NCBI RefSeq assembly: GCF_900313025.1
Contig: NZ_OMPQ01000005.1
Coordinates: 62,001-126,000, forward strand
Source: Pseudophaeobacter sp. EL27
Lineage (GTDB): Bacteria; Pseudomonadota; Alphaproteobacteria; Rhodobacterales; Rhodobacteraceae
Direction: 5' to 3'
DNA: 64,000 bases
Within the stretch, counting starts at the first letter, position 1, and every line of letters starts with the position of its first letter. Positions 39,568 through 48,324 of this stretch are shown piece by piece. Under the pieces are notes generated by a model. It worked only from the letters and a program-made list of their open reading frames with translations. It ran no database searches and had not been told where the DNA came from. The position numbers and the translations under genes are program-made.

Positions 39568-39951
39568 TTAAACCACGATCACGGTAATAACGGTGAGGAC
39601 GACCGAACCGATCATCATGCCCCAGCCCAGTTTCTCGGCTGTTTCGATGTCCAGCCCGTGACCGGCATCAAAATACAGGTGACGCAGCCCGGCGAGGAAG
39701 TGATACCAGATGCCAAGCGTCGAGAGCACCAGCACGATATCGCCAAACCAGGAGGTCATCACCCCGTTGGCTGTGGCAAAATAGGCAGGCGAGGTCGCCG
39801 CCGCGAGGAGCCACCAGACGATCAACATCACCGAGATGATCAGCGCGTTGCCTGTGATCCGGGTGAGGATCGAGGATAGCGCGGTCATCTGCGGGCGATA
39901 GATCGACAAATGCGGCGAAAGCGGGCGATTGCCCCGATTTACATCGGCCAT
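39568..39951 (-). CDS. sdhC: Succinate dehydrogenase cytochrome b556 subunit SdhC
   Basis: 127-residue three-helix membrane subunit. RPLSPHLSIYRPQMTALSSILTRITG is the family signature and the heme-ligand His lies in WYHFLAGLRHLYFDAG. First gene of the operon, with AAGGAG before ATG 39951. A tandem GTGATCAC operator lies 114 nt upstream. Confidence 0.95.
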   Translation of the reverse strand: MADVNRGNRPLSPHLSIYRPQMTALSSILTRITGNALIISVMLIVWWLLAAATSPAYFATANGVMTSWFGDIVLVLSTLGIWYHFLAGLRHLYFDAGHGLDIETAEKLGWGMMIGSVVLTVITVIVV

Positions 39952-40065
39952 GTTGGCTCCTTTCCAGTTAGCTGACGACGTTTTAGCGGATTTTTACGTC
40001 CTGTCACGCAAACAGCGGGTAAATTTCTGCGGTTATTTGACCTGTTTTGCAAAAAAACACATTTC

Positions 40066-40094
40066 GTGATCACAGGTAACCACCCAGTGATCAC
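40066..40094. promoter_or_regulatory. Tandem palindromic operator upstream of sdhC
   Basis: GTGATCAC at 40066-40073 and again at 40087-40094, centres 21 bp apart (two helical turns). On the sdh strand it reads TTTTGTGATCAC, 13 bp, GTGATCACGAAA. An operator of the same geometry precedes sucC. The regulator is unknown. Confidence 0.7.
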
Positions 40095-46179: not shown

Positions 46180-46208
46180 GTGATCACACCCCCGAAAGCC
46201 GTGATCAC
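46180..46208. promoter_or_regulatory. Tandem palindromic operator upstream of sucC
   Basis: GTGATCAC at 46180-46187 and 46201-46208, centres 21 bp apart; reads TTTGTGATCAC, 13 bp, GTGATCACAAAA. It ends 112 nt before the sucC start, almost the same distance as the sdhC copy. Confidence 0.7.
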
Positions 46209-46320
46209 AAAAACCGAAAATCTTCATCATTTCTCTGTGAGACGTCAGAAAAGCCTTTAAACATTTGGCATATGACGGCGTTATGACAGAGATTATTGAA
46301 GCCAGACGGGACAGTTTCTC

Positions 46321-47514
46321 ATGAACATCCACGAATATCAGGCCAAGGCCCTCCTTCGCAGCTACGGAGCGCCAGTTTCCGACGGTCGCATCGTACTGAA
46401 GGCCGACGAAGCCAAAACCGCAGCAGGTGAGCTTGACGGCCCACTTTGGGTGGTAAAAGCGCAGATCCATGCCGGCGGTCGCGGCAAGGGCTCCTTCAAA
46501 GAAGCCGATGCCGGTGAAAAAGGCGGTGTCCGCCTGACCAAATCGGTTGAAGAGGCCTCGGAAGAAGCCAAAAAGATGCTGGGCCGCACCCTGGTCACAC
46601 ATCAGACCGGCCCAGTGGGCAAACAGGTCAACCGCATCTATATCGAAGCGGGCTCGGGCATTCAGACCGAACTCTACCTGGCGCTGCTGGTGGATCGCCA
46701 GACCTCGCGCATCTCCTTTGTCTGCTCGACTGAAGGCGGCATGGACATCGAAGAGGTTGCCGCTGCAACCCCTGAGAAAATCCTCTCCTTCTCGGTTGAT
46801 CCGGCCACCGGCTATCAGGCTTTCCACGGCCGTCGCATCGCCTTCTCGCTCGGCCTTGAGGGCGTGCAGATCAAGCAGTGCGTCAAACTGATGGGCCAGC
46901 TGTACCAAGCCTTCACCGACAAAGACATGGAGATGCTGGAAATCAACCCGCTGATCGTGTCGGACACCGGTGATCTGAAAGTGCTCGACGCCAAGGTCAG
47001 CTTTGACGGCAACGCCATGTACCGCCACCCCGATGTGGCTGAGCTGCGCGACACCACCGAAGAAGACTCCAAAGAGCTGGAAGCCTCCAAGTATGACCTG
47101 AACTATATCGCGCTTGACGGTGAGATCGGTTGCATGGTGAACGGCGCGGGTCTGGCGATGGCCACCATGGACATCATCAAACTCTACGGTGCTGAGCCCG
47201 CAAACTTCCTCGACGTTGGCGGCGGCGCCACCAAAGAGAAAGTCACCGAGGCTTTCAAGATCATCACCTCTGATCCACAGGTCAAAGGCATCCTAGTCAA
47301 CATCTTCGGCGGCATCATGCGCTGCGATGTGATTGCCGAGGGTGTCGTTGCCGCGGTCAAGGAAGTTGGCCTGCAGGTTCCGCTGGTGGTGCGTCTTGAG
47401 GGCACCAATGTGGAAGCCGGCAAAGAGATCATCAACACCTCTGGTCTTGACGTGATCGCCGCCGACAACCTGTCCGATGGCGCCGAGAAAATCGTCAAAG
47501 CGGTTAAGGGTTGA
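46321..47514 (+). CDS. sucC: Succinyl-CoA synthetase beta subunit
   Basis: 397-residue ADP/GDP-forming subunit with an N-terminal ATP-grasp domain ([30 protein letters not shown]) and a C-terminal CoA-ligase domain ([31 protein letters not shown]). With SucD it makes succinate and a nucleoside triphosphate from succinyl-CoA. A methyltransferase gene separates it from sucD. The tandem operator lies upstream. Confidence 0.97.
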
Positions 47515-47523
47515 GAACCGGAC

Positions 47524-48324
47524 GTGGCACTGGATCAGCGACAAATAAATCGACCTTGTCCCGCCTGTGAGAGTGAGGCCGCGACCTTGGTTCCGACCTA
47601 CTCTCCGGAGCCTTGGAACATCGTGTGCTGTAATTCATGCCAGTTTGTCTATCTTGGAAATCCGCCTGCCTATGAAGCGTTGGAAGAGGATTTTGCCTGG
47701 GAAAAAACCTATGAGGCCAAGAAAACGGTTTCAAAGGGATCCACCCCTTTCTCTCCCATGGCCCGCAAACTGCGGGGTCACCTGGGGATGTATCGGGACA
47801 AGACCCAACAATTTCGCAAATGGTTCAATGACGGTGCCGTGCTCGACATCGGTTGTGGCTGGGGCCAACGCATCCAGCCGCCGATGACACCACACGGGAT
47901 CGAGCTGTCAGTGGCGATGCATCGCCATGCCGACGGTTGGATGCGTCAGCACGGAGGTTACTGCCTGCACGGGCCAGGCGCCGAAGCGATCTGGGACTTC
48001 CCCGAAGAGCATTTTGACGGTGTTGTCATGTTCTCCTATCTCGAACATGAAACAGCCGTTCTTCCGGTGCTCAAGGGGGCGCATCGCACGCTCAAACCAA
48101 CCGGTGCAGTTTTCATCCGGGTGCCGAACTATGCTTCTCTTAATCGCCGTGTGATCGGGCCAAAATGGTGCGGTTTCCGCTATCCCGATCACGTCAACTA
48201 CTTCACGCTGCAAAGCCTTAGTGATGTCGCCGCGCGCGCAGGGTTCACCACCCATCTGGTGAACAAGTTCTCGCTGCCGGTGGACGACAATATCACGGTG
48301 CTTTTGCGCAAAACCAACTCTTAA
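47524..48324 (+). CDS. Class I SAM-dependent methyltransferase with N-terminal zinc ribbon
   Basis: 266-residue protein. The N-terminus has CPACES and CCNSCQF, a four-cysteine zinc ribbon often found on methyltransferases of surface-sugar or secondary metabolism. The SAM-binding loop is [14 protein letters not shown] near residue 109, followed by [27 protein letters not shown] and [19 protein letters not shown]. It starts with GTG 9 nt after sucC and ends 15 nt before sucD, so it is part of that transcript. Substrate unknown. Confidence 0.8.

Follow-up and report, generated by a model that had tools for sequence, protein, structure and literature searches.

Two copies of the palindrome GTGATCAC stand side by side upstream of both sucC and sdhC in Pseudophaeobacter sp. 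EL27, and we asked which regulator, if any, might read them. The window (the whole stretch of DNA that was analysed, 64,000 nucleotides) contains both genes, and the features discussed here are listed in Table 1. Direct reading of the sequence confirmed what an earlier note on this DNA had described, namely a tandem pair with centres 21 bp apart and a 13-bp spacer (N13) before each gene, with both operators beginning with TTTGTGATCAC in gene orientation and ending in an A-rich segment. The distances from operator to start codon given in that note, 112 nt for sucC (ATG at 46321) and 114 nt for sdhC (ATG at 39951), were correct as figures, but the start-codon distance is not conserved, as it ranged over 97–166 nt for sucC and 114–191 nt for sdhC among 70 operators. 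The genes sucC and sucD are separated by a methyltransferase-like ORF (window 47524-48324), and the same arrangement was seen at locus L066 of genome G001.

Table 1. Predicted operators, inferred promoter boxes and predicted target genes in the window.
Feature	Position	Strand	Detail	Basis
Tandem AkgR operator (predicted) before sucC	46180-46208	+	GTGATCAC ACCCCCGAAAGCC GTGATCAC; sites 46180-46187 and 46201-46208	sequence, family conservation
Tandem AkgR operator (predicted) before sdhC	40066-40094	-	gene orientation GTGATCAC TGGGTGGTTACCT GTGATCAC; distal site 40087-40094, proximal site 40066-40073	sequence, family conservation
sucC, succinyl-CoA synthetase beta subunit	46321-47514	+	target gene	ORF; orthologs in 25/26 genomes searched
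sdhC, succinate dehydrogenase cytochrome b subunit	39568-39951	-	target gene, first of sdhCDA(B)	ORF; orthologs
Inferred -35 box, sdhC promoter	40002-40007	-	GTGACA	58 nt downstream of operator
Inferred -10 box, sdhC promoter	39980-39985	-	TAAAAC	16 nt after GTGACA; aligns with TATNNN of other genera
Inferred -35-like block, sucC promoter	46255-46260	+	CTTTAA	46 nt downstream of operator
Inferred -10-like box, sucC promoter	46281-46286	+	TTATGA, weak	aligns with TATA-like words in other genera

The word GTGATCAC occurs nine times in the window against 0.9 expected from shuffling, five of these words being single and outside both tandem pairs, and this excess would favour the view that the pairs are words produced by chance or codon bias. 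Against that view, the exact pattern GTGATCAC-N13-GTGATCAC occurs just twice in the 4.55-Mb genome, before sucC and before sdhC, and the reversed control pattern does not occur in this genome at all. A survey of 120 genomes of the same family, one per genus, detected the N13 pair, with no more than one mismatch, in 105 genera and the reversed control in none of the 120. The spacer was 13 bp in 59 and 12 bp in 11 of 70 operators (all fetched loci), and spacers of 11 or 14 bp were absent before sdhC and sucC in these 70. Little conservation extends more than 3 bp beyond the conserved core. The core was fixed by the search pattern and the flanks are the informative part: a T precedes the first site, the second is followed by AAA, and roughly 10 nt beyond this comes an A/T tract, the other positions contributing little. 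The chance or codon-bias reading is refuted, and the argument of the earlier note that an equal pair before two linked operons is not expected by chance stands.

Conservation of the pair before sdhC and sucC orthologues in related genera, which had been proposed as a test, was found when the test was run. In all 14 of the regions read in other genera every operator preceded sdhC or sucC, also when the two operons were some 90 kb from each other or on separate contigs, and nearly every pair whose position was checked lay before one of these genes. One genome (G037) carries a third N13 pair before fumC, encoding fumarase of the TCA cycle (L034 1501-1529, corresponding to G037:C16:228293-228321; fumC was named from its translation). 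Pairs with other spacings were also seen. The N16 pairs of G074 and G063 fall within open reading frames; N7 pairs or triples of GTGATCAC in G098 and G112 (L271 1501-1523 and L270 1501-1550) lie away from sdh and suc; and an N23 pair in G037:C12 (L267 1501-1539), with centres 31 bp apart or three helical turns, lies between two ORFs.

A spacer of 12 or 13 bp places the centres 20 or 21 bp apart, which is two helical turns. Each word is a perfect palindrome, so paired hairpins acting in RNA by attenuation, rather than sites in DNA, might be imagined; but 4-base arms without a loop cannot form stable hairpins, the fixed 20/21-bp spacing is a feature of the DNA helix, and the words would not be transcribed from the inferred promoters because they lie upstream of the promoter boxes, which makes this explanation scarcely credible. 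A dimeric regulator that would bind twice on one face of the helix before two linked operons, as the earlier note had suggested, fits all of the evidence.

That note had left the regulator unnamed, and comparison of genomes allows it to be named as, in all probability, AkgR of the GntR/FCD family. The akgR gene of this genome encodes a 221-aa protein (G000:C15:178875-179537) outside the window, on another contig and so unlinked to the sdh and suc operons, which is a point against the assignment; its product scored above the cut-off for both PF00392 (GntR winged helix, 52.3 bits) and PF07729 (FCD, 62.4 bits). In many loci of other genera akgR orthologs adjoin sdhB or follow lpd where the suc operon ends, part of these neighborhood loci coming from a scan of named genomes that is not a fair sample and did not have R. 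sphaeroides among its names. By our own count, the distance between akgR and an operator is no more than 20 kb in 20 of 44 genera.

Presence of akgR and of the operator agreed in 117 of the 120 genera (both in 105, neither in 12, akgR alone in one, operator alone in two). The genome with akgR alone carries pairs with one mismatch, and the two with the operator alone are fragmented drafts. Four apparent exceptions with akgR (G008, G050, G061 and G080) have the pair with a 12-bp spacer. Fisher’s exact test gave p ~1e-13 for this co-occurrence, a value to be read with the proviso that genera are not independent. Mapped onto a SucC tree (35 genomes), the akgR/operator label requires about five changes, and well-supported branches force at least two of them. 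In one genome (G100) akgR is split between two frames (L289 1025-1650, G100:C56) and both operators are lost.

With 23 GntR matches in the genome, another member of the family could bind the pairs, for example the PdhR-like protein of L003, which is also commoner in operator-bearing genera. Its phylogenetic profile nonetheless fits less well than that of akgR: an ortholog is absent from the operator-bearing genomes G026, G083 and G086, and G117 has only a 41% match; akgR, in contrast, is found in every operator-bearing genus tested in that set and has the motif on its own promoter. We regard a GntR protein other than AkgR as very unlikely. Of the other GntR genes, the one closest to the window (L017, C6:58597) was also considered and rejected, as it was the best match of no gene near operators in the other genera read.

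AkgR of Rhodobacter sphaeroides and its sites are said to have been described by Imam, Noguera and Donohue in mBio in 2015 (e02461-14), with AkgR as an activator. A literature search with the bare motif gave unrelated papers among the best matches listed. To connect our genomes with this system we used published coordinates: in G046:C4 three RSP_0489 ChIP motifs lie at 2222951, 2223847 and 2515296, inside the published chr1 intervals (PMC4344238). G046 is therefore R. sphaeroides 2.4.1, and the GntR gene beside its sdhB is therefore, by position, RSP_0981. This protein, which we take to be AkgR, is 80% identical to the AkgR of our genome. RSP_0981 has been predicted to control sucCD, sdh and sucAB (PMC4344238), and PMC6365646 reports GTGATCAC as an AkgR site and R. 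sphaeroides AkgR as a transcriptional activator.

We then considered in which direction AkgR might act. In 21 of 27 sdhC operators a GTGAC box starts 57–59 nt after the operator, followed 16–17 nt later by a TATNNN-like word, and sucC promoters have a conserved CNTTTA block 44–50 nt after the operator. The conserved quantity for the sdhC operator is thus the distance to the -35-like GTGAC box and not that to the ATG, and between sdhC and sucC the operator-to-box distance changes by some 11 nt, a single helical turn. Placed so far upstream, at a constant distance and on the same helical face, the sites would fit an activator that contacts RNA polymerase, with the promoter boxes themselves also inferred.

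The akgR gene itself is preceded by a different arrangement. One exact GTGATCAC stands directly before akgR in 48 of 97 akgR upstream regions, where chance would give 0.008 per region; in 37 cases TTGAC precedes its start by 13 nt, and in 45 an in-frame ATG follows its end at 8–10 nt. The akgR promoter of our genome carries such a single site (TTGACCAAGGGTGGGTTTGTGATCACAGCATAGGCCATG), while at the akgR loci of Cereibacter, Gemmobacter and Tabrizicola TTGAC is kept and the GTGATCAC site is absent. Self-repression by AkgR would be the simple reading of this site, because it would cover the -10 region of the akgR promoter.

The overlap of the single site with the expected -10, which looks repressive, together with the established fact that many FCD-domain GntR proteins are repressors, could be taken to mean that AkgR binds the tandem pairs but represses sdhC and sucC, with release by a metabolite giving induction. 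The tandem sites, however, do not cover the promoter: 46–59 nt separate them from the inferred -35 boxes downstream, a distance that is fixed for sdhC. R. sphaeroides AkgR, moreover, is reported as an activator; repression of the two operons therefore appears unlikely to us. Our preferred reading, to which we assign a probability of about 0.93, is that the tandem pairs are double operators through which AkgR would activate the sdhC and sucC operons, and that the single site on the akgR promoter would serve to repress akgR. Upstream of the promoters of sdhC and of sucC, two AkgR dimers would sit next to each other on one DNA face at a centre-to-centre distance of 20 or 21 bp and would activate transcription of succinate dehydrogenase and of sucCD-sucAB-lpd. 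In many members of the family, including our genome, AkgR would also bind one site on its own promoter, leading to repression of akgR. We infer that the AkgR of our genome binds the copies described here, activates from them and represses itself.

In a class-wide sample of 153 genomes the pair (N11–14) turned up in the three that belong to the family and in two that share a single other genus, and a strong akgR match was found in the three family members only. In one of those two, G246, which belongs to another family, the pair (L263 992-1020) precedes a GntR/FCD gene whose product shares only 29% identity with AkgR, and a partial site is also present upstream. Because of this pair, and of a similar proposal for Pseudomonas simiae, related regulators may share the GTGATCAC word.

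The tandem pairs are real and strongly conserved, and very probably operators of a known regulator, and both the core finding and the identity of the regulator were already known; a motif found by eye can now be assigned a probable regulator. The spacing rule, the co-loss with akgR, the autoregulatory site and the fumC case are refinements that possibly add detail to the AkgR system. It is conceivable, though we put it forward tentatively, that a family-wide rule applies, in which an array of two AkgR dimers with strict 20/21-bp phasing and fixed promoter distance gives activation at the succinate node and one dimer over its own -10 gives self-repression; whether regulation is positive or negative would then depend on how many copies of one 8-bp word are present and where they lie. 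AkgR likely controls succinyl-CoA synthetase, 2-oxoglutarate dehydrogenase and succinate dehydrogenase in most genera of an abundant family. The pattern GTGATCAC-N12/13-GTGATCAC offers a searchable rule for AkgR targets, as with fumC, and the natural losses of akgR and operator provide material for testing.

Compared with known systems, AkgR of R. sphaeroides (RSP_0981) is the closest, being an ortholog with the same palindrome and the same target operons, sdh and suc. It differs in being without the autoregulatory site, while the akgR of our genome is unlinked to its targets and carries a single such site. PS417_07240 of Pseudomonas simiae, a regulator of deoxyribonate oxidation reported to be 32% identical to AkgR (PMC6365646), is likewise of the GntR family and has been proposed to bind GTGATCAC, but its own gene is preceded by one site, at -47 to -40, and its target genes are different (PMC6365646). 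CceR (RSP_1663), a regulator of central carbon metabolism, shares with AkgR sdh as a predicted target in R. sphaeroides (PMC4344238), but it belongs to the LacI family and has a different motif, [A/G/T]GTT-N6-8-AAC[A/C/T].
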